Positions 1 through 16,246 of a DNA stretch of 64,000 bases are shown one piece after another; position 1 is the stretch's first letter, and every line of letters starts with the position of its first letter. The DNA comes from an uncultured Balneola sp. (GTDB lineage Bacteria; Bacteroidota; Rhodothermia; Balneolales; Balneolaceae). Below the pieces are notes generated by a model. The model did no database searches and was not told the origin of the DNA. It saw nothing but the letters and a program-made list of their open reading frames with translations. The translations under genes were made by a program, and so were the position numbers. The stretch spans positions 1 to 64,000 of the forward strand of contig CAJXQC010000003.1 in assembly GCA_913058495.1 (NCBI GenBank), in the 5' to 3' direction.

Positions 1-46
1 AGATGTAGAGAGGTCTCGTGGGCTCGGAGATGTGTATAAGAGACAG
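1..46. other. Residual Illumina Nextera i7 adapter (not genomic)
   Basis: Bases 13-46 match the 34-nt Nextera read-2 transposon adapter exactly, ending in the 19-bp Tn5 mosaic end AGATGTGTATAAGAGACAG at 28-46. The 12 bases before it read AGAT, the last four bases of the P7 primer, then GTAGAGAG, the adapter form of index N707 (CTCTCTAC). This order, P7 end, 8-nt index, read-2 adapter, is that of a library molecule and not of a chromosome. Genomic sequence starts at base 47, so the truncation of the first gene is an assembly artefact. Confidence 0.97.
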
Positions 47-1023
47 ACATTAAACAGCCCTTTGGCTCCTGCATTTCTGGCCAGATCATATTCAAAATCG
101 TAACCACCCATTTCTTCTTTTGATCGGCGATATGCTAATATCACATTATTAGCACCCATTCTGGCTGATTCTGATGCGGCATCCATAGCTGTATTCCCGC
201 CGCCAATTACGATCACGGAATCCGGGACCCTGACTTTGTGCTCAGTCATGCGGAGTTCTTCAACAAACTCTACTGCTCCGATCACATTTTCTTTATCCAC
301 TCCGGGGAGATCAAGATCAGCAGTTGGACCAAGACCAACTCCGATAAAAATGGCATCGTAATCCTTTTCAAGATCGTTTAATTGCTCTTTTGTAGTAATG
401 GCTTTGCCATAATGGATACTGAATCCAAGCTGATCTTGCAGATATTCAACTTCATCAAGAACTTCTTTGTTGGTGATCTTATAAGGAGCCGTTCCGTGTA
501 CAGCAAGCCCGGAAGGCTTGTTTTTAGCTTCAAAAATATCCACAGAAAAACCCAAAGTTCGAAGTTCACATGCACATGAAATTCCTGCAGGTCCGGCCCC
601 AATTACGGTTACTTTCTTGCCATTATCTTTGCCGGGTTTGAATATTTCTTTTTTTGATTTTATAACTTGATCAGTGGCAAAGTTCTGCAATCGTCCGATA
701 TCAATGGGTTTAACATCCTGATGGTTATAGACACAAGCTCCCTCGCACAGCACTCCGGTAGGGCAGACTTTTCCGCAGGTATTGCCAAACCAGTTTTTAT
801 CGAAGATCGTTTTTGCAGCACCTTCAGCGTTTCCTGTTTGAATTTGTTTTATAAATAATGGAATGTCAATTCCGGTTGGGCAAGCAGTGACACATGGAGC
901 ATCATAACAAAACAAACAGCGCGAACTTTCATAGAACGCTTCTGTCTTGTTCATCAGCGGTTTTTTCTGAGCAAAGTTTTTACGAAAGTCTTCGCTGGAT
1001 TCCGGTCTTTTGTATTCTGCCAT
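47..1023 (-). CDS. preT: NAD-dependent dihydropyrimidine dehydrogenase, PreT-like subunit (3' end missing)
   Basis: This gene is absent from the ORF track because it runs off the contig without a stop. From the ATG at 1023 about 325 codons are open. The N-terminal part has two cysteine clusters for [4Fe-4S] centres (CLFCYDAPCVTACP and CGKVCPTGVLCEGAC), followed by an FAD-binding VIGAGPAGISCACEL segment and a second nucleotide-binding VIVIGGGNTAMDAA segment. This is the glutamate synthase small-subunit architecture shared by PreT. PreT, with the dihydroorotate-dehydrogenase-like PreA, reduces uracil or thymine to the 5,6-dihydro form with NADH. The assignment to pyrimidines rests on the neighbours: the gene starts 50 bp after the beta-ureidopropionase stop and dihydropyrimidinase is next upstream. 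PreA is probably just beyond the contig end. A glutamate synthase beta subunit is the main alternative, but the context argues against it. Confidence 0.85.
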
Positions 1024-1073
1024 AAATAAATCCTGTTGATCACTGATTAATTTGAATTGAATGAACTGGTTAA

Positions 1074-1940
1074 TTAGAGTTCAGTGAGTTTATCATATGT
1101 TTCAGGTCTACGATCTCTGAAGAACTGCCAGGTTGATCTCACTTCATCGATCATATCCAGATCAAATTCAGCTACTAATAATTCATCTTTGTCTTCTGAA
1201 GCTTCAGCGAAAATTTGTCCCCGCGGATCCACAAAATATGAGGTTCCGTAAAAACGACCGAGATCCCAGGGCTTTTCTTCACCCACTCGATTGATACATC
1301 CCATGAAATAACCATTGGCTGCCGCATGAGCAGGTTGTTCCAGTTTCCAGAGATACTGAGATAATCCTTCTACAGTGGCAGATGGATTATAAACGATCTC
1401 AGCTCCGTTCAGACCAAGAATTCTGGCTCCGTCAGGGAAGTGGCGATCATAACAAATATACACACCAACCTTAGCATACTTGGTCTGGAAAACGGGATAA
1501 CCGAGATTGCCGGGCTTAAAGAAAAATTTCTCCCAAAATCCGGTAGTGTGAGGAATATGATTTTTGCGATACTTACCGAGATAAGTTCCATCAGCATCAA
1601 TAACAGCTGCGGTGTTATAAAAAACCCCGGCTTGTTCCTTTTCATATACAGGGACAATAATCACCATTTGGTACTTCTTAGCATATTCCTGCATCATCTC
1701 AGTTGTTGGACCGGGAACAGTTTCTGCTGATGCGTACCATTCTTTATCCTGTCCCGGGCAGAAATAAGGCGTATTAAAAATTTCCTGCAAACAAAGAATC
1801 TGAACACCTTGCTTTCCGGCTTCTTCTATATATGGAATATGCTTATCGGTCATGGCTTTCATGATCTCTTTGATGCTTCCTTCTCCTTCGGTCATAGGAA
1901 GACTCATTTGAATAAGACCTGATTTAACTTTTCTTGGCAT
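1074..1940 (-). CDS. Beta-ureidopropionase (N-carbamoyl-beta-alanine amidohydrolase), nitrilase family
   Basis: A 288-residue cytoplasmic carbon-nitrogen hydrolase. The Glu-Lys-Cys triad is visible: Glu53 in LQEIFNTP, Lys126 in YRKNHIPH and the nucleophile Cys163 in YICYDRHFPDGAR. Enzymes of this branch hydrolyse N-carbamoyl-beta-alanine (or the beta-aminoisobutyrate analogue) to the beta-amino acid, CO2 and ammonia, the third step of reductive pyrimidine breakdown. The CYDRHFPDGAR context resembles eukaryote-type beta-ureidopropionases and N-carbamoylputrescine amidases. The gene lies between dihydropyrimidinase (63 bp upstream) and preT (50 bp downstream), so the pyrimidine role is preferred over polyamine synthesis. 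The ATG at 1940 gives a natural N-terminus with no signal peptide. Confidence 0.88.
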   Translation of the reverse strand: MPRKVKSGLIQMSLPMTEGEGSIKEIMKAMTDKHIPYIEEAGKQGVQILCLQEIFNTPYFCPGQDKEWYASAETVPGPTTEMMQEYAKKYQMVIIVPVYEKEQAGVFYNTAAVIDADGTYLGKYRKNHIPHTTGFWEKFFFKPGNLGYPVFQTKYAKVGVYICYDRHFPDGARILGLNGAEIVYNPSATVEGLSQYLWKLEQPAHAAANGYFMGCINRVGEEKPWDLGRFYGTSYFVDPRGQIFAEASEDKDELLVAEFDLDMIDEVRSTWQFFRDRRPETYDKLTEL

Positions 1941-2003
1941 AATGTTTCTTTATTTGTTTTCAGTTTAATTGGCAGATCGGGTAAAAACTATCTGCTGAAA
2001 TTT

Positions 2004-3389
2004 TTAGATCACGTAGGATGTTTTTCCGCGCTTCACGAATTGTCCGCTACCGGGTTCTAAATGACATTCTTCATTTTCGATGGCGATTTGTCCACGGAGC
2101 AATACCGTCTCTGTTTTTCCGGTTACTTCCCAACCTTCATAGCTCGAATAATCTACATTCATGTGATGGGTGTCTTTTGAAATAACATGTTCTTTTTCAG
2201 GATCAAAGATCACGATATCTGCATCAGTTCCAACAGCAAGTGTACCTTTCTTTGGATACATTCCGAAAATTTTAGCCGGATTGGTGGCAGTTACTTCAAC
2301 AAATTTATTGAGTGAGATTTTTCCTTTCTTAACTCCTTCCGAAAAGATCAATTCCATCCGATGTTCAATAGCGGGATGTCCATTCGGAATCTTTGAAAAA
2401 TCATCTTTCCCCATTTTCTTCTGTTCCCAGGTAAAAGGGCAGTGGTCTGTTCCGATCACATTCACCAATCCCTGCTGCAAACCCGACCAAAGTGCTACCT
2501 GATCTTTTTTCTCCCGAATAGGAGGACTCATTACCCATTTTGCTCCCTCAAAATCATCTTCATAAACAGAAGCATCGACCAGTAAATACTGAGGACAGGT
2601 TTCCACAAATATGCGTTGATTTCTAAGTCCCGCTCGTTGAACGGCATTGAGCGCGCCTTCGCAAGTCATGTGAACAATATACCCGGTACATCCTGTGTAA
2701 TGAAGCATATCAGTAAAACGAGCGCTCGCTTCGGATTCAGTAACTTCAGGCTGTGAAAGATAATGGTAGAGAGGAGCGGTCTTTCCTTCCGAAAGATGTT
2801 TGGCAATCAGAGAATCAATTACGTCGCCGTTGGTGGCGTGTACTGTAACCAATCCACCATGCTTCTTAACAACTTTCATGAGTTGGATCATTTGTCCGTC
2901 ATCGATCATTAAGGCTCCTTTGTAAGCCATAAATGTTTTGAAAGATGTAATTCCTTCTTCTTCGATGAACTCCACAATTTCTTTGGCTACATCATCATTG
3001 AAATCGGTAACTGCCATATGATAGGAGTAATCACCAATGGCTTTGCCTTCTGATTTTTTTTGCCAGGTTTTTAAAGCGTTTCTGAGGGTGTCGCCCTGCG
3101 TTTGGAGGATGAAATCAATGACAGTGGTAGTTCCGCCAAAAAGAGCTGCACGTGTTCCGGTTTCATAATCATCGCTGGAGTAGGTGCCCATAAAAGGCAT
3201 ATCCAGATGAACATGAGGATCAATACCGCCCGGTAATACTAATTTGTTGGATGCATCAATGATTTTATCAGCTTTAAAGTCCAGATTTGCTCCGATAGCT
3301 GAGATCTTTCCATTTTCTACATAAAGATCAGCGATGTAATCTTCTGATGCAGTGACAATTCTACCATTTTTAATAAGTACTGATGACAT
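2004..3389 (-). CDS. hydA: Dihydropyrimidinase / D-hydantoinase
   Basis: A 461-residue amidohydrolase that opens the ring of dihydrouracil or dihydrothymine to give the N-carbamoyl-beta-amino acid. Binuclear metal-centre motifs are intact: GGIDPHVHLDMPF with His59 and His61, a carboxylated-lysine segment ITSFKTFMAYKG near residue 150, a VHATNGD histidine, and the catalytic aspartate in GTDHCPF. The length fits the dihydropyrimidinase family, and the D-x-x-F-x-GTYSSDDYETGTRAALFGGTTT stretch is characteristic (shown here as two short motifs, GTYSSDDYETG and ALFGGTTT). The gene follows the NCS1 permease by 12 bp, which indicates co-transcription. Related allantoinases and dihydroorotases usually differ in the HLD/HCP surroundings, so the call is firm. 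Confidence 0.93.
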   Translation of the reverse strand: MSSVLIKNGRIVTASEDYIADLYVENGKISAIGANLDFKADKIIDASNKLVLPGGIDPHVHLDMPFMGTYSSDDYETGTRAALFGGTTTVIDFILQTQGDTLRNALKTWQKKSEGKAIGDYSYHMAVTDFNDDVAKEIVEFIEEEGITSFKTFMAYKGALMIDDGQMIQLMKVVKKHGGLVTVHATNGDVIDSLIAKHLSEGKTAPLYHYLSQPEVTESEASARFTDMLHYTGCTGYIVHMTCEGALNAVQRAGLRNQRIFVETCPQYLLVDASVYEDDFEGAKWVMSPPIREKKDQVALWSGLQQGLVNVIGTDHCPFTWEQKKMGKDDFSKIPNGHPAIEHRMELIFSEGVKKGKISLNKFVEVTATNPAKIFGMYPKKGTLAVGTDADIVIFDPEKEHVISKDTHHMNVDYSSYEGWEVTGKTETVLLRGQIAIENEECHLEPGSGQFVKRGKTSYVI

Positions 3390-3401
3390 AATACAATTAT
3401 A

Positions 3402-5147
3402 CTAAGTGAGAATTTCTTCGGTTTCTGTCCCGGTTTGATGATCCCTCATTAAATAGTAATAGAGAATAAACGCTACCCCGAAACCTGTAAACCATGATAA
3501 ACTATATAAATAACTCAGGGATGGAATCCAAAACCCGATAAGGGCTGTAAGTACACCCGCAGCTAAAGCAAACATTGCTGCTTTATTAAAACCTGATCCG
3601 CCATACGAGTATTTACCTTCAGGTTTATAAAGTTCATAAAGAGCCAGAGTCTTTTTGCGAATCAGATAATAATCACAAAGAAGTACTCCTAAAACGGGTC
3701 CCAGTAATCCGCTTACAAATACAAGAATAGCTCCGATATCATCGGCAAGCCACCATGGACATGTAATAATTCCAACAACTCCGGCGATAATTCCACCGGT
3801 TCTGAAGTTTAATTTTTGTGGAATTACATTGGCAATTGCATTTGCAGGCGCTATTATATTCGCGGCGATATTGGTACTTAATGTGGCAATTATCAAAGCG
3901 ATCTGAGCAAAAATAACTATTCTGGGATGTTCAAATTGAGCGACTAAAGAAACAGGATCCCATGGCGTATCTTCCACGATCATAACATCTTTGAAGGAAA
4001 TGATAGCAGCACAGGTCACAAAAATGGCTACGAATGAATAGAAAGTCATGGTGGTAGGTAATCCTAAAAACTGACCTTTAATTTGGTCGGTCTGGTTTTT
4101 TGAGAGACGCGTAATATCAGCGATACTGATTGCCATTGTAGCCCAAAATCCAACCATAGCTGTAAACCAGATCAGGTATGTCCAGATCGTTGGTTGTGAA
4201 TTTGAAGCAGAATCTTCAGCAAAAACAGATATTGTACTGGAATAAACTCCGTCTGCATTTTTAAACTGAACCAAAACAGGTTCTCCACCGGAGGCATAGC
4301 TTTTAGAAAATGGAATTGAAATCTTTGATGAGATCGAAGTGATGGGTTGCCAGCCAAGGTCGTCATATCCTGAAGTTGTTGGAATCTTGACAGAAACTTC
4401 GGAAGCTTTTGCATTTCCATCCAGATCAGCAACTACATTTAAATTTAAAAGATATTCTGAAGAGTTGGATTCTGAGACCTGTAACGAAGCTGTAGTTTTT
4501 TGAAGCTGAGCTCCCTGATCCAGAACAGCAGAAAAACTGCCTGCATTATTATATCCCCAGCCAATCAGGATCAGACCGATCAGAATGAGAATCGGTGCTG
4601 AGTAATTTTCCAGCCATTTTATGGACTCTGTTCCTTTCCAGATAAAATAAATGTTGATACACCAAAACAGCCCAAAACATATGAATTTCCCAAGATCCAA
4701 TTCCAGAGAGCCAGACTGTCCCGAAATAATATTCCATATAGAATAAAAAGCTAAACCACCGATCCAGGTTTGAATTCCGAACCAACCACAGGCAATAATA
4801 CCACGAACCAGAGAAGCGATATGAACACCGTAGATTCCAAATCCGGCTCTTCCGAAAACAGGAAATGGAATTCCGTATTTCACTCCGGCATGTCCACTGA
4901 GAACCATAGGAATCGTAATCACTAAATTTGCAATCGCGATAATAATGAGTGAAGCCTGCCAACTCAATCCGGATAAAATCATGTTGGAAGCCAGCAAGTA
5001 AGTAGGAATACATACCGCCATACCAACCCAGATCGCTGTCATATTCCACATCGACCAGGTTCGGTCTTCATGCGGAAGTGGAACCATATCTTCACCACTT
5101 AATGGAGAAGATTCTAATTCTGCAGGTAGTTTAAGGTTTTCATTCAT
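3402..5147 (-). CDS. NCS1-family nucleobase permease with an inserted periplasmic domain
   Basis: The N-terminal part (LPHEDRTWSMWNMTAIWVGM) and the membrane segments are typical of nucleobase:cation symporter-1 proteins that import uracil, allantoin or hydantoins. At 581 residues it is about 90-100 residues longer than usual. The excess is a polar stretch at about residues 203-318 between TM5 (PILILIGLILIGWG) and TM6 (TIWTYLIWFTAMVGF). Five membrane segments precede it, so with a cytoplasmic N-terminus it should lie in the periplasm. It contains alternating hydrophobic strands and a VLVQFKNADGVYSS segment reminiscent of Ig/fibronectin-like modules. The gene sits 12 bp before hydA and 20 bp after the aminotransferase, which suggests it imports the pyrimidine or hydantoin substrate. 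The role of the insert is unknown. Confidence 0.88.
   Translation of the reverse strand: MNENLKLPAELESSPLSGEDMVPLPHEDRTWSMWNMTAIWVGMAVCIPTYLLASNMILSGLSWQASLIIIAIANLVITIPMVLSGHAGVKYGIPFPVFGRAGFGIYGVHIASLVRGIIACGWFGIQTWIGGLAFYSIWNIISGQSGSLELDLGKFICFGLFWCINIYFIWKGTESIKWLENYSAPILILIGLILIGWGYNNAGSFSAVLDQGAQLQKTTASLQVSESNSSEYLLNLNVVADLDGNAKASEVSVKIPTTSGYDDLGWQPITSISSKISIPFSKSYASGGEPVLVQFKNADGVYSSTISVFAEDSASNSQPTIWTYLIWFTAMVGFWATMAISIADITRLSKNQTDQIKGQFLGLPTTMTFYSFVAIFVTCAAIISFKDVMIVEDTPWDPVSLVAQFEHPRIVIFAQIALIIATLSTNIAANIIAPANAIANVIPQKLNFRTGGIIAGVVGIITCPWWLADDIGAILVFVSGLLGPVLGVLLCDYYLIRKKTLALYELYKPEGKYSYGGSGFNKAAMFALAAGVLTALIGFWIPSLSYLYSLSWFTGFGVAFILYYYLMRDHQTGTETEEILT
4194..4541 (-). other. Inserted beta-rich periplasmic domain of the NCS1 permease
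   Basis: This is the coding segment for about residues 203-318 of the permease, between TM5 and TM6. It is soluble-looking, rich in Ser, Thr, Asp and Gly, and reads through in frame without any stop or frameshift. Strand-like alternation (LNVVADLDG, EVSVKIP, SKISIPF, PVLVQFKNADG, TISVFAE) suggests a beta-sandwich. The domain assignment is inference; the insertion itself is visible by length and position. Confidence 0.65.
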
Positions 5148-5167
5148 CCGATAAAGTTTAGTTACGA

Positions 5168-6514
5168 TTAGTCACAGTATTCATCCGCAATAGAAATTGC
5201 TTGTGAGATGATGTCGAGCCCTTCATTAATTTGTTCTTTAGTTATACAAAGCGGGGGAGCGGTGAAGATCCAGTTCCAGCGCACAAAAGTGAACATACCT
5301 GCTTCTCGGATCTTTGAAGCCATACGATTTGTGGCTTCCATTTCAGATGGTTTTGCATTCCAGGGCGTAACGGGTTCTTTAGTGTCACGGTTTTTAACCA
5401 ATTCAATGCAACCAAGTAATCCGGTGTTGCGATAATCGCCAATAGAAGGATGTTTTTCCTTGAGTTTTTCAACTTTCTGTTCCATGTAAACGCCCATGTT
5501 AGCGGCATTGGCAACCATCTTTTCTTCCTGAATGATTTTTATGTTTTCCAAAGCTGCTGCACAGGAAACAGCATGAGCAGAGTAAGTGAGTCCAATTACC
5601 AAAGGGTTATCATCAAAATGTTTAGAAATAGTATCGGTCAAAATTACAGCTCCAAGTGGCAAATATCCCGATGTTAATCCCTTTGCTGTACAAATTATAT
5701 CAGGTGTAACACCGGAATGGTCGACTCCAAACATTTTCCCGGTTCTTCCAAAACCGCTCATGGTTTCATCGTCAATGAGCAGAATACCATATCTGTCTGC
5801 TATTTCACGAAGAAGTTTCCAGTAGTTAGATGGGTATTTAATACAACCCGAAGATCCTGATTCACCTTCAATTAAAATTGCAGCAATGCTATCAGGATTT
5901 TCATACTTAATAATATTCTCGATGTTTTTTGCAGCCATTTCTCCACATTCTTCCATCGATGAGGTGTTCCAGGGACAACGATAGAAGTAAGGATTTTCGA
6001 CATGAACAAATCCCGGAGCAATTTGATCATCTACCGGAAATTTTCTTGGATCTCCTCCTGCTGAAATTGCTCCATATGTTGCTCCATGATACGAGCGATA
6101 ATGAGAGATAATTTTGTGTCTGCCGGTGTACATTCTGGCAACTTTAATAGAATTTTCTACAGCTTCAGCCCCACCTAAAGTGAAAAACGTTTTTTTTAGG
6201 TTTCCGGGAGTTATTTCAGCAATTTTTTTGCCCAGTTTACCTCGCACTTCTGTTGCCATTCCAGGATATACGTAGCTTAGTTCCTGCATTTGTCTGGAAA
6301 CGGCCTCTGTAATACGTTGATCTCCATGACCAATATTTACATTCATCAGTTGAGATGAAAAATCGAGGTATTTCTTACCATCACGATCATAGAAATATAC
6401 TCCATTAGCACTTTTGGCATTCACAGGATTTAAACCTCCCTGCTTAGCCCAAGAAAAAAGAGTGTATTCCAGATTATCATTTAGAATTTGCTTGTCAGAT
6501 GATTGTGAAGACAT
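5168..6514 (-). CDS. Class III aminotransferase, probable beta-alanine / beta-aminoisobutyrate transaminase
   Basis: A 448-residue PLP-dependent aminotransferase of fold type I, class III. Visible motifs are the phosphate-binding GGAEAVENSIKVAR, the PLP-contacting LIDDETMSGFGRTGK and the Schiff-base lysine in TAKGLTSGYLPLGAV, near residue 280. The family transfers the amino group of an omega-amino acid to pyruvate or 2-oxoglutarate. Lying 20 bp before the NCS1 permease and within the pyrimidine catabolic run, it most likely converts beta-alanine to malonate semialdehyde and beta-aminoisobutyrate to methylmalonate semialdehyde, feeding the dehydrogenase encoded upstream. Substrate preference cannot be read from the sequence. 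The length is normal and the N-terminus starts with MSSQSSDKQ at the ATG at 6514. Confidence 0.85.
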   Translation of the reverse strand: MSSQSSDKQILNDNLEYTLFSWAKQGGLNPVNAKSANGVYFYDRDGKKYLDFSSQLMNVNIGHGDQRITEAVSRQMQELSYVYPGMATEVRGKLGKKIAEITPGNLKKTFFTLGGAEAVENSIKVARMYTGRHKIISHYRSYHGATYGAISAGGDPRKFPVDDQIAPGFVHVENPYFYRCPWNTSSMEECGEMAAKNIENIIKYENPDSIAAILIEGESGSSGCIKYPSNYWKLLREIADRYGILLIDDETMSGFGRTGKMFGVDHSGVTPDIICTAKGLTSGYLPLGAVILTDTISKHFDDNPLVIGLTYSAHAVSCAAALENIKIIQEEKMVANAANMGVYMEQKVEKLKEKHPSIGDYRNTGLLGCIELVKNRDTKEPVTPWNAKPSEMEATNRMASKIREAGMFTFVRWNWIFTAPPLCITKEQINEGLDIISQAISIADEYCD

Positions 6515-6809
6515 TTAAAAAAGGTTTCGGGTTTCGGATTACGAGTTTTGGTTTGTAGGCATATATTAGCTCAAAAGTTTGATGATTCAGTATTCATTAT
6601 TTTTTTAGATTCTGTTGCTAATAGGTACTGCACCTAATTAATTGCCCTTTAATATGATTTCCTAAGTAATTGTTAGGAAGTGTGACTGCAACTTTTACAC
6701 AAGCATGTGCAAATTCTTTAGTACGTTTTAAAAGTTGCTCCTTCATAATCAGGATTATTTTGTTATCTGAATCAAATAATCAATAGTAAAAATTCAATCA
6801 TCAATTAAT
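6515..6809. other. AT-rich intergenic region, probable operon promoter region
   Basis: This 295-bp gap separates the semialdehyde dehydrogenase from the aminotransferase-permease-hydA run, all on the minus strand. No ORF of note is seen. It is the only long gap in the locus, so it probably carries the promoter of the downstream genes. The one clear feature is the inverted repeat TTCCTAA-N7-TTAGGAA at 6659-6679. Confidence 0.5.
6659..6679. promoter_or_regulatory. Inverted repeat, possible operator of the pyrimidine catabolic operon
   Basis: Perfect 7-bp arms TTCCTAA (6659-6665) and TTAGGAA (6673-6679) are separated by 7 bp. It lies about 145 bp upstream of the aminotransferase start. No T-run follows on either strand, so an operator is more likely than a terminator. 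The regulator is unknown. Confidence 0.3.
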
Positions 6810-8285
6810 TCAACTCATCCAATTTGTACGGGCTTCGGCATTCCATTTAATCGATGTCTTTTTATTCTGAGTCCAAAACTCAATAGAACTTTTACCGGTA
6901 ATATCACACACTCCAAATTTTGAGTCATTCCATCCGCCAAAAGGAAAGGGTTCTCGTGGTACAGGAACTCCAATATTAACTCCGATCATACCCGCACTGG
7001 CTCGTTCCATCACTTCTTTTGCTGCACCACCACTTTGAGTAAATACTGCAGCAGCATTTCCATATCCGGAGCTGTTTTCAATTGCAATAGCTTCATCCAG
7101 GTCTTTAGCTCTGATGATAGAAATAACCGGACCGAAAACTTCTTCTTTGGCAATGGCCATATCCGGAGTTACGTAGTCAACAACAGTTGCCCCAACATAA
7201 AAGCCACCTTCGCTACCTTTTACAGTTGCGTTTCTGCCATCAACGAGCACTTTTGCACCGGCGGCCTCAGCTTCTTCAATATATTTTTCTATTCGTTCTT
7301 TGGCTTCTTTGCTGATCACGGATCCAAGGTTATCGCCCGGAACTATTTTCTTAGCTTCATCCACCATTCGTGCAACAATATGATCTACTTTATCAACTCC
7401 AACCATTACAGCAGCTGCCATACAGCGTTGCCCGGCGCAACCAGACATTGAAGCGATTACATTCGAAGCCGTCATTTCTTCATTAGCATCCGGCAATACA
7501 ATTAAATGATTCTTAGCACCTCCTAAAGCCACACATCTTTTAAGGGAAGAAGTTGCTCGTTTGTACACAATTTTTGCCACTTTAGTAGAACCCACAAACG
7601 AAACCGCTTTAATTTCAGGATGATCGCAGATGGCTTCTACAATTTCTTTACCACCATTTACAATATTGAAGACTCCATCAGGTAATCCGGCTTCTTTTAG
7701 CAATTCAGCAATTTTGACTGCACTTACCGGAACAACTTCGGATGGCTTCAGGATCATACAATTTCCAAGAACGATCGCATTTGGGACTGTCCAGTGCGGA
7801 ACCATATTGGGAAAGTTAAAAGGAGCGATGGAAGCAACCACACCCAAAGGTTTTCTGTCGATACGAACTTCTACTCCACGGCTTACTTCCTGAACTTCGT
7901 TAGTTATGATCTGCGGCATGGAGCAGGCAAATTCCGTTAGCTCAATACTTTTTTCAACTTCTGCTTTTGATTCTCCCCAAGTTTTCCCGTTTTCAGTATG
8001 ACATATTTCTGTTAGCTCATCCATATGCTTTTCGAGCAATTCCCGATATTTATAGAAAACCTGGACTCGTTCTTTTAGTGTTCGGCCTGACCATTCGGGA
8101 AATGCATTTCTTGCAGCTTGCACGGCGTCATCCAGCTCTTTTGATGAAGAAAGAGGCACACTTGAAATTCGGGACCCATTAAGAGGACTTATTACATCAA
8201 GTCGGGGAGAGCCGTTTGAGACAAACTTTCCATTAATAAAATTATGAGTAGTTTCATCGATCTTAGTAGCCATAGCACTATGCAA
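6810..8285 (-). CDS. mmsA: Methylmalonate/malonate-semialdehyde dehydrogenase (acylating)
   Basis: A 491-residue aldehyde dehydrogenase. The family signature is clear: the NAD-binding FVGSTKVAKIVYKRA segment, LGGAKNHLIVLPDA, and the catalytic cysteine in GCAGQRCMA near residue 285. The GAKNH motif, with Asn-His in place of the usual Glu general base, is typical of CoA-acylating methylmalonate-semialdehyde dehydrogenases, which yield propionyl-CoA or acetyl-CoA with loss of CO2. It thus fits as the last step after the beta-alanine aminotransferase. The ORF begins MHSAMATKID; the ATG four codons in is an equally possible start, since neither has a strong ribosome-binding site. It is separated from the rest of the pathway by 295 bp and may have its own promoter. 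MmsA also serves valine or inositol breakdown. Confidence 0.9.
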   Translation of the reverse strand: MHSAMATKIDETTHNFINGKFVSNGSPRLDVISPLNGSRISSVPLSSSKELDDAVQAARNAFPEWSGRTLKERVQVFYKYRELLEKHMDELTEICHTENGKTWGESKAEVEKSIELTEFACSMPQIITNEVQEVSRGVEVRIDRKPLGVVASIAPFNFPNMVPHWTVPNAIVLGNCMILKPSEVVPVSAVKIAELLKEAGLPDGVFNIVNGGKEIVEAICDHPEIKAVSFVGSTKVAKIVYKRATSSLKRCVALGGAKNHLIVLPDANEEMTASNVIASMSGCAGQRCMAAAVMVGVDKVDHIVARMVDEAKKIVPGDNLGSVISKEAKERIEKYIEEAEAAGAKVLVDGRNATVKGSEGGFYVGATVVDYVTPDMAIAKEEVFGPVISIIRAKDLDEAIAIENSSGYGNAAAVFTQSGGAAKEVMERASAGMIGVNIGVPVPREPFPFGGWNDSKFGVCDITGKSSIEFWTQNKKTSIKWNAEARTNWMS

Positions 8286-8494: not shown

Positions 8495-9808
8495 TTAACC
8501 ATCCACTTTAGTTGGGTTTTTATTAACACCCGGAGTTCTGTTTAGAAACTCATCATATAATTCAGTATGTCTGCTTGTCATCGGGATTTTATATCCGTCG
8601 ATGAAAACATCCAGAATTTTTGTAGAAGTCTGGAAAGGATCTCCGGTAGAAACAAAGATATTTGCTTTCTTACCTACTTCGATGGAACCAAGCTGATCGC
8701 CCACGCCCATGATCTCAGCAGCATTGATCGTAATGGCCTTTAGCGCTTCTTCCTTACCCATGCCATAAGTAGCTGCAAAACCAGCGTTGTATGGAAGGTT
8801 ACGAGAATTCTCAGTATCCATTGTTCGCAGAGCAACTTTAATTCCTGCTTTCTGCATCAAGCCCGGATTTTTGTATGCCATATCGTAAGCATCAGAACCG
8901 CGGGTTGGTGTTGAAAGAACAGGTCCTGTAATAACAGGAAATCCGGCTTCAGCTATTTCATCTGCTACACGCCAGCCTTCAGCCACACCTGTAAGAACTA
9001 CATTTTCGTAGCCGCGCTCTTCAATCCATTCCAACGCACTCAGAATATCTTTAGCGGAGTTTACTTCTATGTAAAGCAGCACTTCGCCGTTTACAACTTT
9101 GGCGAGAGCTTCCATCTCCGGATAATACCGGGCAGCATCAGATTCTTTGATCTTTGCATATAGTTCTGCTTTATCAAAAGCATCATTGATTGTTTCCTGA
9201 GCTTTTTCACGAGCTTTCTCGATCTGTTCAGGAGTTCTTCGTCTCCAACCGCGTTGTGCGGAAGAAGGAAAGTTCATAACCACGCCTTTAGAACCTGCAA
9301 ACATCTGATCCGGAGTGTAACCGAAAAGACTGATAGTTGCAGCTGTTCCCGGAAGCGGGCCACCTGCCGGCATAGTTAAGGCTGAAGTTACACCACTAAC
9401 TCTTGTAACCGGAATAGCTACTGAATTTGGGTTAACAGCTGTTAAAGCCTGCATATTCGGTGTTATTTCACCAAATTCTCTGAAGTCATTAGCTTCGGAT
9501 ATACTGCCGATCTCTGATAGACCTAGGCGTGTTCCTGAATCGATCATTCCCGGATAGATCTCCTGTCCGGAATAATCAATAACCTGAGCATCGCCCGGAA
9601 TGTTGATGTCAGCTCCAACAGCTTCAATAATACCATTGTTAATTATGATGGTACCATTTTCTATAACTCCGTTTGTTACGGTATAGATCTTAGCATTGGT
9701 CAATGCAAATTTTGAATTATCGGCTCGTACTATTCCCCCATCATTTTGCGCAACGGCAAATAATGGCAGCAGTACAAGTACACTTAATATGGATATAAAT
9801 TTTTTCAT
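8495..9808 (-). CDS. Secreted amidohydrolase-fold protein lacking metal ligands (third of three)
   Basis: A 437-residue protein with a signal peptide (MKKFISILSVLVLLPLFAVAQ) and an amidohydrolase fold, recognised from TNAKIYTVTNGVIENGTI at the start and GSIEVGKKANIFVSTGDPF at the end. Where active enzymes have PGxIDxHxH this protein has YPGMIDSGTRLG, and the later ligand positions are also replaced (LLYIEVNSAKD instead of a VHCHS-type histidine, LTGVAEGWR instead of FQHANEA). It should therefore be unable to bind the usual binuclear zinc and may be a pseudo-enzyme partner of its intact neighbour. The ORF can open at a GTG at 9820 that overlaps the upstream TGA, but the ATG at 9808 is preferred because GAGGA precedes it and the signal peptide begins there. 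Confidence 0.82.
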   Translation of the reverse strand: MKKFISILSVLVLLPLFAVAQNDGGIVRADNSKFALTNAKIYTVTNGVIENGTIIINNGIIEAVGADINIPGDAQVIDYSGQEIYPGMIDSGTRLGLSEIGSISEANDFREFGEITPNMQALTAVNPNSVAIPVTRVSGVTSALTMPAGGPLPGTAATISLFGYTPDQMFAGSKGVVMNFPSSAQRGWRRRTPEQIEKAREKAQETINDAFDKAELYAKIKESDAARYYPEMEALAKVVNGEVLLYIEVNSAKDILSALEWIEERGYENVVLTGVAEGWRVADEIAEAGFPVITGPVLSTPTRGSDAYDMAYKNPGLMQKAGIKVALRTMDTENSRNLPYNAGFAATYGMGKEEALKAITINAAEIMGVGDQLGSIEVGKKANIFVSTGDPFQTSTKILDVFIDGYKIPMTSRHTELYDEFLNRTPGVNKNPTKVDG

Positions 9809-9816
9809 TTGGTTCC

Positions 9817-11193
9817 TCACTTGTTATTAAAGAGGTCAGTGAAATTCACAACATTAGCATCTTCCATGCATCTGTCATGATCATTAGCGTAAAGGATTTG
9901 AACATCCTCAACTGTAGATTCAGGATCTATATAGATTCTCTGGTCAGCAACATCATTCTCGATATCAAAATATTTTACACCGTCTACAAAAGTCATTTGA
10001 GGTACAGCATAAATAGACAACGGATGGTTATCAAAAATAGCAATATCGGCATCCTTTCCTTTTTCCAGGGATCCAACACGATTATCAATACCGAGTTGTT
10101 TCGCCGGGTTAAGAGTGATCAAAGCTAAAGCTTGGTTATCGGAAAGGTCTCCGTATTTCTGGGTTTTAGCTGCCTCATGGAATAAATGCCTGATTAATTC
10201 TCCTGAATCAGAGTTGATTGAAGTAGTTACTCCGTTTTCAGTTAGAATTGCTGCGTTATAAGCTGTGGAATAGTAAACTTCCAATTTATAAGCCCACCAA
10301 TCAGCGAATACAGAAGCAGAAGCTCCAAATTCAGCCAGTTCAGGAGCTACCTTATAAGCTTCGTTAGCATGTTGAAAAGTAAGTCTCTTGATTCCGAAAT
10401 CAGAGAAAACTTTCATCAGCATATAGATCTCATCGGCACGGTAAGAATGGCAATGAACCAGAACTTCACCTTCCAGAATATCAACCATAGTTTCCATACG
10501 TAAGCTGTATTCAGGAGCTACTTTTCTTGAACTCTTGTTCGAACGATATGCATTCCAGGCATCACGATATTTGATGGCGTCATTGAATGTATTTCTAAGC
10601 ATTGCTTCCACACCCATTCTGCTCTGAGGTTGAATACCTCTGGAACGTCCGCCTCTGGTCGGGTTTTCACCCAATGCAAACTTTATAGTTCTGGGAGCTC
10701 CTTCAAAGCGAAGATCTTCAGGATTTGTACTTCCCCAGCGTAGTTTTAAAGTTTCATTTTGTCCGCCTATCACATTTGCAGAACCATGCATTAAATGAAT
10801 AGATGTAACTCCACCGGCAAGTGCTCTGTAAATAGAAACATCAAGCGGATCAACAACATCTTCCATACTTACTTCAGCAGTAACCTGGCTGGTACCTTCA
10901 TTAATAGAAGTTCCTGCTATATGAGAGTGAGCGTCAATAATTCCAGGCATTACAAACTTCCCTGTTGCGTCAACTTCTTCAACGCCATTAGGAGTTTTTA
11001 GGTTTTTACCGATTCGGTCAATTTTACCATTGCGAACAAGAACATCAGTGTTCTCAAGCGTTCCGTCTGTAATAGTAATTACAGTTCCGTTCTTAATTAG
11101 TACATCTCCTTTTTTTGTTTGAGCCTGTAATGCAGAAACACACAGAAACAGAATAAAGAAGGAGGAAATTTTTATCATTTTGAATAATCTCAT
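9817..11193 (-). CDS. Secreted metal-dependent amidohydrolase (second of three, catalytically intact)
   Basis: A 458-residue exported amidohydrolase with N-terminal signal MIKISSFFILFLCVSALQAQ. Metal-binding motifs are present: GIIDAHSHIAG (His89 and His91), VHCHSYRADE, TFQHANEAYK, and a terminal aspartate in TSINSDSGELIRH. The family includes imidazolonepropionase-like and prolidase-like enzymes that cleave cyclic amides or dipeptides; the substrate here cannot be deduced. The track start at 11277 lies far inside the upstream gene. The ATG at 11193, one base after the upstream stop and preceded by GATGAGG, is the likely start. It is translationally coupled to both neighbours, which are similar proteins without metal ligands. 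Confidence 0.85.
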   Translation of the reverse strand: MRLFKMIKISSFFILFLCVSALQAQTKKGDVLIKNGTVITITDGTLENTDVLVRNGKIDRIGKNLKTPNGVEEVDATGKFVMPGIIDAHSHIAGTSINEGTSQVTAEVSMEDVVDPLDVSIYRALAGGVTSIHLMHGSANVIGGQNETLKLRWGSTNPEDLRFEGAPRTIKFALGENPTRGGRSRGIQPQSRMGVEAMLRNTFNDAIKYRDAWNAYRSNKSSRKVAPEYSLRMETMVDILEGEVLVHCHSYRADEIYMLMKVFSDFGIKRLTFQHANEAYKVAPELAEFGASASVFADWWAYKLEVYYSTAYNAAILTENGVTTSINSDSGELIRHLFHEAAKTQKYGDLSDNQALALITLNPAKQLGIDNRVGSLEKGKDADIAIFDNHPLSIYAVPQMTFVDGVKYFDIENDVADQRIYIDPESTVEDVQILYANDHDRCMEDANVVNFTDLFNNK

Positions 11194-11194
11194 T

Positions 11195-12880
11195 TTAAGC
11201 CTCATCTTTTGTTGCTTGAATTGGGAAAGTAAAGTTAAAAGCTGCAACACTCGCTTCAGCATCGTAGTTTTTTCCATCTATAACACCTTCAACAACAATA
11301 TCCACGGATTGACCACCTGCATCAATGGAGAAGTCAAATGTAAGTTCACTATTCAGAAAACTAATGTTTTGAAGATCTACATCAGGGGTTCCGTCATTGC
11401 TTGACATTACGCCGGTTAAAATTCCGGATTCATTCTTGAAGACCATTTTCCCTGTTTGAGTTCCTTGAGGTGTAGTAAATTCGTAACTCCATGAACCAAT
11501 TACAGCTTCCATATTAGCAGGAGAGGCAGCACCATCTTCTGTTTTACGTGCGCCTGTTTTCAGATCATACTCGTATTTGTCACCATCAACAAAAACATAT
11601 TTGATTTGTGATTCCTTATCAAAATAAGCGCCTTTGGAAACAATCAGATTTCCAATTTTTCCTTCATCAAGCGTTCCTGTTATGTCGCTAATTCCCAAAA
11701 GATCAGCTGCATTAGTAGTTAAAGCAGCAAGGGCTTCATCTTCACTCAATCCATTTTCAATTATGGTAAGCAGATTATCTTTCAATTGGTTCGAGCGTGA
11801 GTCAATAGAAGAAAAACCAAATTTGATTCCGGCTTTTTGAAGATCCGCATATTGAGAAACGTACTTTTTATAAAATTCCATTCGTCGTTCTTCGAGCTGT
11901 TTCACTTCATCAGATTTATCGTCCTCTTTACTGTTCTTAGGTTCTTTCGGAAGTTCCAGAGACATAAAAACTTTTGTGCCTGAACTTTTAATTTCATCAG
12001 CTAGATCCCAGCCTTCCTGAAGATTTCCAAGCACCAGATTAAATCGGAGTTCTTTCTGTAATCTCATTGCTCTTCTTGCTTCCAAAGAATTAGAAGCGTT
12101 ATAAAAGATCGGTTGTTGTTTATCTATAACCGGATAGAAAGCTTCTGAAACTCTGTCTCTTGTAGGACGGGAAATTCCGGATGGGTTAGAAGCGTACAAT
12201 TCAGAATGATTCTTAGAAAGCTCTGCATTCTTGTACAGATCTCTAAATTTCGCCATAATTCCCAAAGTATTACCCGGGTATGCTCCGGGAGCGCCAGAGA
12301 ATTGTGAATAAAGAGAAGATCCTTCGGATAAGATCAACTTATCAGGATGGTCAGCATCCCGAAGAAGTATTAAAGCTCCTGAACCGGGAAGCATTCTTCC
12401 GTAGGGAACTGTATGAGAAACCGTAAAACCTACTTTACGCATAGCTTCAATACTGTTTTCATCTACCTTGATCTGTTCAATTACTTGATGCTCAGGTGTA
12501 ATTCCTGCATAGCTGTTTGGTGGATCCGGAGTAAATAAATTATCAGGACGTTCCGGACTTTGAGGTCTGTCAGCACCCGTATTTGACATCCCGTCAATAA
12601 ATCCTGGATAAATAAACATATCAGTGCCGTCAAGCACTTCTGCGTTACTTGGTATATTCACATTTTTGCCAATGGCAGTAATCAACCCGTCTGTAATTAC
12701 AATGGTACCCTCTTCCATTACTTTTCCGGGAGACTGAACAATCGTAGCATTAGTTATCGCGTAAGTACGAGTTGCAGGAGATTCCCCGGTAGGATCGCTT
12801 TGAGCATGTGTATTGCTCATAAATCCGATCAACGGAAGAACGAATAACAGACGAAAAAAAGTTTTTCGTATTAGTTTCAT
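11195..12880 (-). CDS. Secreted amidohydrolase-fold protein lacking metal ligands, with extra C-terminal domain (first of three)
   Basis: A 561-residue protein with a signal peptide (LLFVLPLIGFMSNTHAQ). Residues up to about 440 follow the amidohydrolase pattern (ITNATIVQSPGKVMEEGTI, GTLDEGKIGNLIVSKG), but the HxH position reads YPGFIDGMSNTG and the other histidine sites are also lost (PIFYNASNSLEA, LVLGNLQEGW). Residues about 450-561 form an added beta-rich domain (GSWSYEFTTPQGTQTGKMVF) resembling a lipocalin-like or calycin-like barrel; this is an inference from strand pattern. The gene leads the three-gene run and is 1 bp from the next start, so the products are probably made together and may form a complex. 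Confidence 0.8.
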   Translation of the reverse strand: MKLIRKTFFRLLFVLPLIGFMSNTHAQSDPTGESPATRTYAITNATIVQSPGKVMEEGTIVITDGLITAIGKNVNIPSNAEVLDGTDMFIYPGFIDGMSNTGADRPQSPERPDNLFTPDPPNSYAGITPEHQVIEQIKVDENSIEAMRKVGFTVSHTVPYGRMLPGSGALILLRDADHPDKLILSEGSSLYSQFSGAPGAYPGNTLGIMAKFRDLYKNAELSKNHSELYASNPSGISRPTRDRVSEAFYPVIDKQQPIFYNASNSLEARRAMRLQKELRFNLVLGNLQEGWDLADEIKSSGTKVFMSLELPKEPKNSKEDDKSDEVKQLEERRMEFYKKYVSQYADLQKAGIKFGFSSIDSRSNQLKDNLLTIIENGLSEDEALAALTTNAADLLGISDITGTLDEGKIGNLIVSKGAYFDKESQIKYVFVDGDKYEYDLKTGARKTEDGAASPANMEAVIGSWSYEFTTPQGTQTGKMVFKNESGILTGVMSSNDGTPDVDLQNISFLNSELTFDFSIDAGGQSVDIVVEGVIDGKNYDAEASVAAFNFTFPIQATKDEA

Positions 12881-14016: not shown

Positions 14017-15096
14017 ATGAAAATATATCTCCTCATATTTTTGTTAACTGTCTCGGCCATGCTGACGAATACCGCCTGCGATACCACCGGAACCAAAGAT
14101 GAGCCGGAATACCTCGAATTCCCTCTTCCTGTAAATGAGAAGATCTCAAAGCTATACGATTGTTGCGATAAACCCGACAGGGTGGGCTACCGGAATTACC
14201 ACTTTGCTGAATGGTATCCCGGAGAGGTGTACACAACTACTCAGATGCGAAAGTTGACCTTAGAACCCAGTATTTCTATTCCATTTGTCGTTGACGAAGA
14301 ACTCATTGAAGGGGACGTAATGTATATGACCAAAAGCGAAGCAGAAAACAGGTTATATACTGTTCGAACAAAATTTTATAAAGAATCAGAGGGTTGGCTA
14401 AATATATATGATATAGAAGCTAAAACATTTACTACCATTCGCGACAGCAGCTACAACATTTCCTCCATTCGGATTCGAGAGCTTTCCGATGGTTCTTTGC
14501 TGAAAGTCTATTACAGCTACGGCAATGAAGACACCGGGTTAGAAGCCGGTTATTACCGCCTGAGCGAGACCGGTCCACCTGATGAGTTGCTGCTTGCGCA
14601 TTCGAATCCCGATGGGCCCAAAGAAACCATTAATGGCTTTGATCTGTCTCCCGATGGTTCTACGCTGCTGTATCCGATTCAACCCGATTTAGTTCCGGGA
14701 CCTGCAGCGTATGGAGGACCACGACCTGAGCTTGCAAAGTTGAACTTGAACACAGGACTCAGGGATACACTTCCGATACAATTTGATCTGCAACAATTCC
14801 TGTGGGCACGCTACCACCCAAGCGGAGAAAAGTTGGTGGTCAGTAACTATCCGCGGAACATCGTGGGAACTGCGAGAATATCGGTGGATTTAGATTCTAT
14901 GTATGTTGTGGACTTAAATACTTTTCAGCGACGTCCTCTGGACACCCGCACCTGGGATCAGCACTACACAGCTGATATTTTTCCAAGCTGGAGCCCGGAT
15001 GGCAACTATCTGATTTACAGCAGTGGGAAGGTGAATCCTAATAGTCCTTCTATAGGTACTTACTCCATTTATACCATGGATATGACGGAAGATTAA
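14017..15096 (+). CDS. Beta-propeller lipoprotein, copy 1 of a tandem pair
   Basis: A 359-residue lipoprotein: the signal sequence ends in a lipobox (LTNTAC) and cysteine 21 would be acylated. Downstream are TolB/PD40-type repeats, for example GFDLSPDGSTLLYPI, WARYHPSGEKLVVSNY and FPSWSPDGNYLIYSSG, each a typical xSPDGxxL blade motif. An early Cys-Cys pair (YDCCDKPD) is shared with the neighbour and might form a disulfide. The gene at 15164 is a paralogue with the same layout, with long stretches of near-identical DNA. Function is unknown; a surface or periplasmic scaffold role is the reasonable guess. Confidence 0.75.
   Translation: MKIYLLIFLLTVSAMLTNTACDTTGTKDEPEYLEFPLPVNEKISKLYDCCDKPDRVGYRNYHFAEWYPGEVYTTTQMRKLTLEPSISIPFVVDEELIEGDVMYMTKSEAENRLYTVRTKFYKESEGWLNIYDIEAKTFTTIRDSSYNISSIRIRELSDGSLLKVYYSYGNEDTGLEAGYYRLSETGPPDELLLAHSNPDGPKETINGFDLSPDGSTLLYPIQPDLVPGPAAYGGPRPELAKLNLNTGLRDTLPIQFDLQQFLWARYHPSGEKLVVSNYPRNIVGTARISVDLDSMYVVDLNTFQRRPLDTRTWDQHYTADIFPSWSPDGNYLIYSSGKVNPNSPSIGTYSIYTMDMTED
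14439..14680 (+). repeat. Tandem duplication, unit 1 core
   Basis: This stretch recurs at 15592-15833, with an offset of 1153 bp. It includes a 32-bp exact match starting CCTGATGAGTTGCTGCTTGC. It is part of the duplicated lipoprotein genes. Confidence 0.85.
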
Positions 15097-15163
15097 CCAA
15101 AGCAACATTTAAAGAATGTGTTATTTATGTCTATTTTAATTAAGTGATTACAACCCTTATAGC

Positions 15164-16246
15164 ATGAAAACTCCCATCTATATACTATTTTGTGCAAGCT
15201 TTTTTTTACTGGCTACCGCATGCGATACCACCGAGCCGGGGGAACCTGCTGAGCTTTTCCCTGCCCCTGTTAACGAAAAGATCAGTGAATTAAGATATTG
15301 TTGCGATGATCCATTCAATGAAGGACCTCCGGTATATGGAAGCGGTGACTATCATTTAGCCGAATGGAGTCCGGGGGAGATATACACAGTAATTCAATTG
15401 CGCAAACTAACTTTAGAACCCAGAACATCTGTGCCCTTTGTTACAGGAGAAGAGTACATAGGAAGCAATGCTATGTACATGACGAAAAGTCTTACTGAAA
15501 ATAAATTATATACCGTACAAGTAGCAGTGTATGGTGAATCGGTAGGCCGGTTAGACACTTATGATTTAACCTCCAGGGAGTTTACCACCATCCGCGATAG
15601 CAGCTACAATATTTCCTCCATTCGTATACGAGAGCTTCAAGACGGTTCTCTACTCAAAGTCTACTACAGCTACGGCAATACAGACACCGGACTGGAAGCC
15701 GGCTATTACCGCCTGAGCGAGACCGGACCGCCTGATGAGTTGCTGCTTGCGCATTCGAATCCTGATGGGCCCAAAGAAACCATTAATGGTTTTGACCTGT
15801 CCCCGGACGGCTCCACGCTGTTGTATCCTGTCCATCACGCTTTCGTACGCGGAGATGTTTATGGCGGACCACCCCCAACGCTGGTGCGATTGAACCTGAG
15901 CACGGGACTCCGAGATACCCTTCCGGTAACCTTTAACCAACAACAGTTTTTGTGGGCACGCTACCACCCGAGTGGAGAGAAGTTGGTGGTGAGTAATTAC
16001 CCGCGCAATATAGTTGGAATAGGTTATAGATCAGTGGATTTAGATTCGATGTACATTGTAGACTTAAATGACTACAGCCGCCGGGCATTGGACACACGTA
16101 CTTGGGTACATTATTACTCAGCCGACATCTTCCCTGATTGGAGTCCTGATGGAAACTACCTGATTTATAGTAGTGGAGTAATATTTCAGTCAGATTTAGA
16201 TATCGGTACTTATTCCATTTACACCATGGATATGACGGAAGATTAA
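15164..16246 (+). CDS. Beta-propeller lipoprotein, copy 2 of a tandem pair
   Basis: A 360-residue paralogue of the preceding gene, 67 bp downstream. The signal peptide ends in LLATAC, a lipobox. It retains the Cys-Cys pair (RYCCDDPF) and the blade motifs GFDLSPDGSTLLYPV, WARYHPSGEKLVVSNY and FPDWSPDGNYLIYSSG. Divergence is strongest in the first 140 residues, while the central segment beginning IRDSSYNISSIRIREL and the end YSIYTMDMTED are almost unchanged. The uneven pattern suggests either different constraint along the protein or partial gene conversion between copies. Confidence 0.75.
   Translation: MKTPIYILFCASFFLLATACDTTEPGEPAELFPAPVNEKISELRYCCDDPFNEGPPVYGSGDYHLAEWSPGEIYTVIQLRKLTLEPRTSVPFVTGEEYIGSNAMYMTKSLTENKLYTVQVAVYGESVGRLDTYDLTSREFTTIRDSSYNISSIRIRELQDGSLLKVYYSYGNTDTGLEAGYYRLSETGPPDELLLAHSNPDGPKETINGFDLSPDGSTLLYPVHHAFVRGDVYGGPPPTLVRLNLSTGLRDTLPVTFNQQQFLWARYHPSGEKLVVSNYPRNIVGIGYRSVDLDSMYIVDLNDYSRRALDTRTWVHYYSADIFPDWSPDGNYLIYSSGVIFQSDLDIGTYSIYTMDMTED
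15592..15833 (+). repeat. Tandem duplication, unit 2 core
   Basis: Second copy of the 14439-14680 segment. Differences are mostly at third codon positions, and they are spread unevenly, with runs of exact identity. Confidence 0.85.

Follow-up and report, generated by a model that had tools for sequence, protein, structure and literature searches.

Three adjacent genes in the window, as the whole 64,000-nucleotide stretch of DNA from an uncultured Balneola sp. is called here, encode the mutually paralogous proteins P1, P2 and P3 (identity 21-29%), which would together form an obligate periplasmic hetero-oligomer, one subunit being catalytic and the other two pseudo-amidohydrolases. The probability of this reading is estimated at about 0.8. 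The same trio, often fused, is present across about nine phyla, and the dead copies therefore very probably belong to the live enzyme as permanent subunits and are not spares in decay.

Gene layout and metal ligands

In the ORF list and the translation of the window, P1 (11195..12880, 561 aa), P2 (9817..11193, 458 aa) and P3 (8495..9808, 437 aa) are consecutive open reading frames on the minus strand, P1 being the first gene of the operon and P3 the last of the trio. The P1 stop is separated from the P2 start (ATG at 11193) by 1 bp and the P2 stop from the P3 start (ATG at 9808) by 8 bp, exactly the junctions of 1 bp and about 8 bp reported in the initial annotation. This spacing suggests that the three proteins are co-translated. 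All three had been described as secreted, and a crude hydrophobicity test indeed predicted signal peptides at about residues 1-26 of P1 (12803..12880, minus strand; the sequence reads NTHA before the predicted cleavage site and Q after it), 1-24 of P2 (11122..11193, minus strand) and 1-21 of P3 (9746..9808, minus strand). By the same test signal peptides are near-universal on all three classes, and Q27 of P1, which follows the predicted cleavage site, is 100% conserved in the first homologue set. An extra C-terminal beta domain had also been proposed for P1. It would comprise about residues 446-561 (11198..11545, minus strand) and is backed by an AlphaFold2 model in which a related P1-P2 fusion has beta strands at 419-508; the domain is optional, being missing from shorter P1 homologues (442-498 aa).

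The Pfam Amidohydro_1 scores of P1, P2 and P3 (30.8, 72.0 and 42.2 bits) all exceed the curated cut-off of 25. The best PDB match of all three is 3ooq, an amidohydrolase of Thermotoga maritima (E 7e-17, 1e-61 and 2e-42, respectively). P1 and P3 retain the overall fold, as had been noted. 3ooq shares all six metal ligands with P2, and differs from the trio in being a single active-type protein, itself uncharacterised. Among the NCBIfam profiles no match above any cut-off was obtained for the trio, which thus received no named function.

P2 retains H89 and H91 of the HxH motif (10921..10929), E176 of a GEN motif (10666..10668), H249 (10447..10449), H275 (10369..10371) and the catalytic or ligand aspartate D329 (10207..10209), all on the minus strand. 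The HxH motif, the later histidines and the aspartate had been noted before; E176 is added here, and analogy to NagA and to adenine deaminase makes it the probable bridging ligand. P2 is consequently predicted to be a binuclear metal amidohydrolase and the catalytic chain, with a Glu-bridged site that presumably resembles the sites of these two enzymes. None of the P2 ligands is found in P1 or P3, which confirms that the later histidines were lost from both. Opposite HxH, the alignment places M98-S99-N100 in P1 (12581..12589, minus strand), as had been stated, and G92-T93-R94 in P3 (9527..9535, minus strand), where the replacement had been read one residue early as SGT. Judged by their sequences, P1 and P3 appear to be amidohydrolase folds devoid of the metal site, and the ligands expected of a catalytic amidohydrolase are missing from them.

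This pattern was followed in homologues from same-phylum genomes, named genomes that were scanned and two further phyla, each homologue being assigned to its class by whole-domain profile score and not by the six ligand positions. All six ligands are present in 209 of the 210 P2 homologues (the remaining one, cut by Ns, has five), and 0-2 of the six positions are filled in all 208 P1 and all 209 P3 homologues. Since the pattern is repeated in over 200 homologous sets, it is not due to chance. Alternative metal ligands in the flanking proteins, which were to count against the original proposal, were not apparent either: in the 208 P1 sequences H, D, E and C stay below 80% conservation in every column, and in the 209 P3 sequences H and C do. 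Some acidic positions of P3 do exceed this value. A loop after strand 1 (9476..9514, minus strand) carries E99, D108 and E111, conserved in 98, 99 and 95% of the P3 sequences and not in P1, and R136 is conserved on the same segment. Together with the good overall conservation of the P3 class, these residues lend some weight to the alternative that P1 and P3 bind or present the substrate, the old cleft being reused as a pocket, instead of activating or stabilizing P2. The conserved polar residues of P1 are few (Y201, R213, R270 and T388), which speaks against it, and we regard this alternative as possible but doubtful.

Co-occurrence, natural fusions and neighbouring genes

Among 148 genomes of the same phylum a strong P2 match (E below 1e-120) was found in 86. 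P1 is present in all of these and a strong P3 in 85; in the one P2 genome in which P3 was not detected (G007) the region is masked by Ns. In ten genomes P3 is unlinked yet present; in two of these it shares the contig at a distance of about 1-1.4 Mb, and in the others it lies on a different one. In two Armatimonadota-type genomes P3 is missing beside P1-P2 but is found elsewhere in the genome. Allowing for contig ends and unlinked copies, no flanking homologue occurs alone in the 148 genomes or in 80 named loci, and the question raised in the initial annotation, whether the homologues always occur as a set, can be answered affirmatively for this sample. Loci that showed P2 and P3 or P1 and P2 alone were rejected as exceptions because they lie at contig ends, and the order P2, P1, P3 in locus L197 because it is the product of an overlapping open frame. 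By record title the named loci belong to Bacteroidota, Acidobacteriota, Planctomycetota, Gemmatimonadota, Ignavibacteria, Marinimicrobia, Armatimonadota/Fimbriimonadales, Krumholzibacteriia and Idiomarina (Gammaproteobacteria), although many are metagenome bins of which single phylum assignments may be wrong. The trio is more ancient and more widespread than could be known from the window alone. Long tandem arrays with many copies of an amidohydrolase of the trio's kind were also seen in Planctomycetota-type genomes (G151:C6:76085-87769; G150:C87 and C121).

P1-P2, P2-P3 and P1-P2-P3 fusions were found in several phyla. The genes are separate in 53 of the 80 named loci (52 and L197), P1-P2 is fused and accompanied by P3 in 11, P2-P3 is fused and accompanied by P1 in six, and the triple fusion occurs in two; two more have P1-P2 with a remote P3 and six are cut by contig ends. 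The set from the two further phyla contributed 24 P2-P3, 18 P1-P2 and seven triple fusion ORFs, and P1-P2 fusions make up about half of the same-phylum loci that were fetched. That lineages differ in how they fuse these three domains is a classical and strong indication that the proteins function jointly. Taken together, the ligand census, the strict co-occurrence and the presence of all adjacent fusions support the earlier proposal that pseudo-enzyme subunits form a hetero-oligomer with the active paralogue. The fusions and the strict co-occurrence would not be expected if P1 and P3 were independent enzymes with a metal-free or relocated active site that are merely co-transcribed with P2. Such enzymes could account for the conserved acidic residues of P3 and for the strong purifying selection on P1 and P3 described below, but P1 has no conserved candidate set of active-site residues at all and this explanation is improbable.

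Two natural fusions were modelled with AlphaFold2. The P1-P2 fusion (985 aa, 53 rows) gave a mean pLDDT of 88.7 and a pTM of 0.86 and the P2-P3 fusion (836 aa, 32 rows) values of 90.6 and 0.91, and in a fold comparison both models again matched 3ooq best. An alignment that mixed fused with single P2 and P3 rows was left out because both domains collapsed onto one half. As two equal domains of uncertain position would be expected to have much lower scores, the pTM values suggest firm packing of the domains; this could also be a memorized homodimer packing, and the models are supportive rather than decisive.

On the strand of the trio, positions 1-8285 of the window hold an apparent cluster for reductive pyrimidine breakdown, with a dihydropyrimidine dehydrogenase-type subunit, a CN hydrolase, a dihydropyrimidinase-like amidohydrolase, a uracil/allantoin-type permease, a class-III aminotransferase and an aldehyde dehydrogenase. 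At its end the first ORF (1-1023, minus strand) reads CLLYTSPSPRDLSTS, apparently a translated sequencing adapter (window 1-50). The window starts at a contig end and this ORF is probably truncated by an assembly artefact. In about 160 other loci of the trio no pyrimidine-breakdown genes were detected alongside, and because the association is not repeated there these genes were rejected as a clue to the substrate. The other neighbours of the trio recur within close relatives only and none across lineages. At 14017-16246 two adjacent paralogous beta-propeller-like secreted proteins contain near-identical stretches, which suggests a recent duplication or gene conversion.

Selection and evolutionary history

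Nei-Gojobori estimates for the window and two near relatives gave dN/dS values of 0.052-0.054 for P1, 0.026-0.034 for P2 and 0.015-0.020 for P3, which are rough values since dS is mostly above 1. Purifying selection is strong on each of the three genes. The fast evolution of P1 (mean identity 29%) and its optional beta domain count against the favoured reading. That P1 and P3 are decaying, functionless duplicates, as the loss of all catalytic ligands might suggest, is already contradicted by dN/dS values of at most 0.055 at moderate divergence, by frames that, with few exceptions, are intact in the more than 200 loci from about nine phyla, by the conserved signatures of their own that P1 and P3 possess and by their retention even when unlinked.

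Each class forms one clade in the tree, and the inner branching largely matches between classes; over 144 loci their distance matrices correlate with r 0.79-0.89. Such matching is also produced by simple inheritance of the genes together. A second system of a live and a dead protein, the pair A/B (loci L199-L218, e.g. L199:2396-4961), consists of a secreted amidohydrolase and an adjacent secreted paralogue without ligands. The live half keeps five of the six ligands, the Glu being replaced by Thr, and the dead half has HxV, T, G and E at the ligand sites. The pair resembles the trio in that a live secreted enzyme adjoins a dead paralogue, and differs from it by its single dead partner with invariant residues of its own (e.g. 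E at the D329 site) and by its separate clades. Some genomes of the phylum carry A/B alone, without the trio.

When outgroups are included in the tree, one clade (100/98) unites the dead half of A/B with P1 and P3, and P2, 3ooq and the live half of A/B lie outside it. A single dead clade fits the view that the metal site was lost in one ancient event. The root branch is weak, however, the rows of the outgroups are long, and dead lineages could have been grouped by their fast evolution. We consider it an even bet that the metal site was lost once, deep in bacterial history, and that the dead copy then became the obligate partner of its active sister. This pairing would have diverged into A/B with its two genes and P1/P2/P3 with its three, and the latter would have been kept, re-fused in every adjacent combination and spread to about nine phyla as a hitherto undescribed secreted enzyme of hetero-oligomeric build.

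Role of the dead subunits and known systems

According to the mechanism that we favour, P1, P2 and P3 would be exported to the periplasm and assemble there into one obligate hetero-oligomer, probably with a stoichiometry of 1:1:1 or a multiple thereof. P1 and P3 would probably fill the places that are held by identical subunits in homo-oligomeric relatives, and P2 would probably need them for folding, for stability or for a complete active site, much as the trypanosomatid deoxyhypusine synthase needs its dead paralogue. P2 might hydrolyse a small peptide or a cyclic amide, which is the weakest step of the mechanism.

Partnerships of this kind have precedents. In the Pseudomonas ATCase-pseudo-dihydroorotase complex a dead chain of the amidohydrolase superfamily is required for activity and assembly at a ratio of 1:1 (PMC7053772). 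Its active partner has an unrelated fold (transcarbamoylase) and there is one dead chain, whereas the trio has two dead chains and its partners are amidohydrolase paralogues, not an aspartate transcarbamoylase. The trypanosomatid deoxyhypusine synthase is an active enzyme that is activated by a dead paralogue in a hetero-oligomer (PMC3663545), and the same principle applies to AdoMetDC and its prozyme (PMC5201418). A prozyme-type partner is a dead paralogue that is under purifying selection and co-occurs strictly with the active one, and both properties were found in the trio. These systems, however, are eukaryotic, involve other folds and have one dead paralogue, whereas the trio has two, is secreted, often fused and spread over many phyla. 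A live enzyme with a dead paralogue is thus of a known kind, and a secreted multi-phylum trio with two dead chains that is multiply fused is apparently undescribed. A literature search on the trio and on 3ooq/TM0814 found nothing relevant; subscription journals were mostly outside its reach and a prior description is possible.

Dead enzyme paralogues are common, and few have been demonstrated to be obligate partners. The trio provides one live and two dead subunits, separate and fused, as soluble secreted proteins in more than 200 sequence sets, and with these the role of two dead subunits for one live enzyme is directly testable. Two-thirds of the members of this widespread 'amidohydrolase' group have no metal site, and, as a warning, P2 expressed from its single gene may be inactive.
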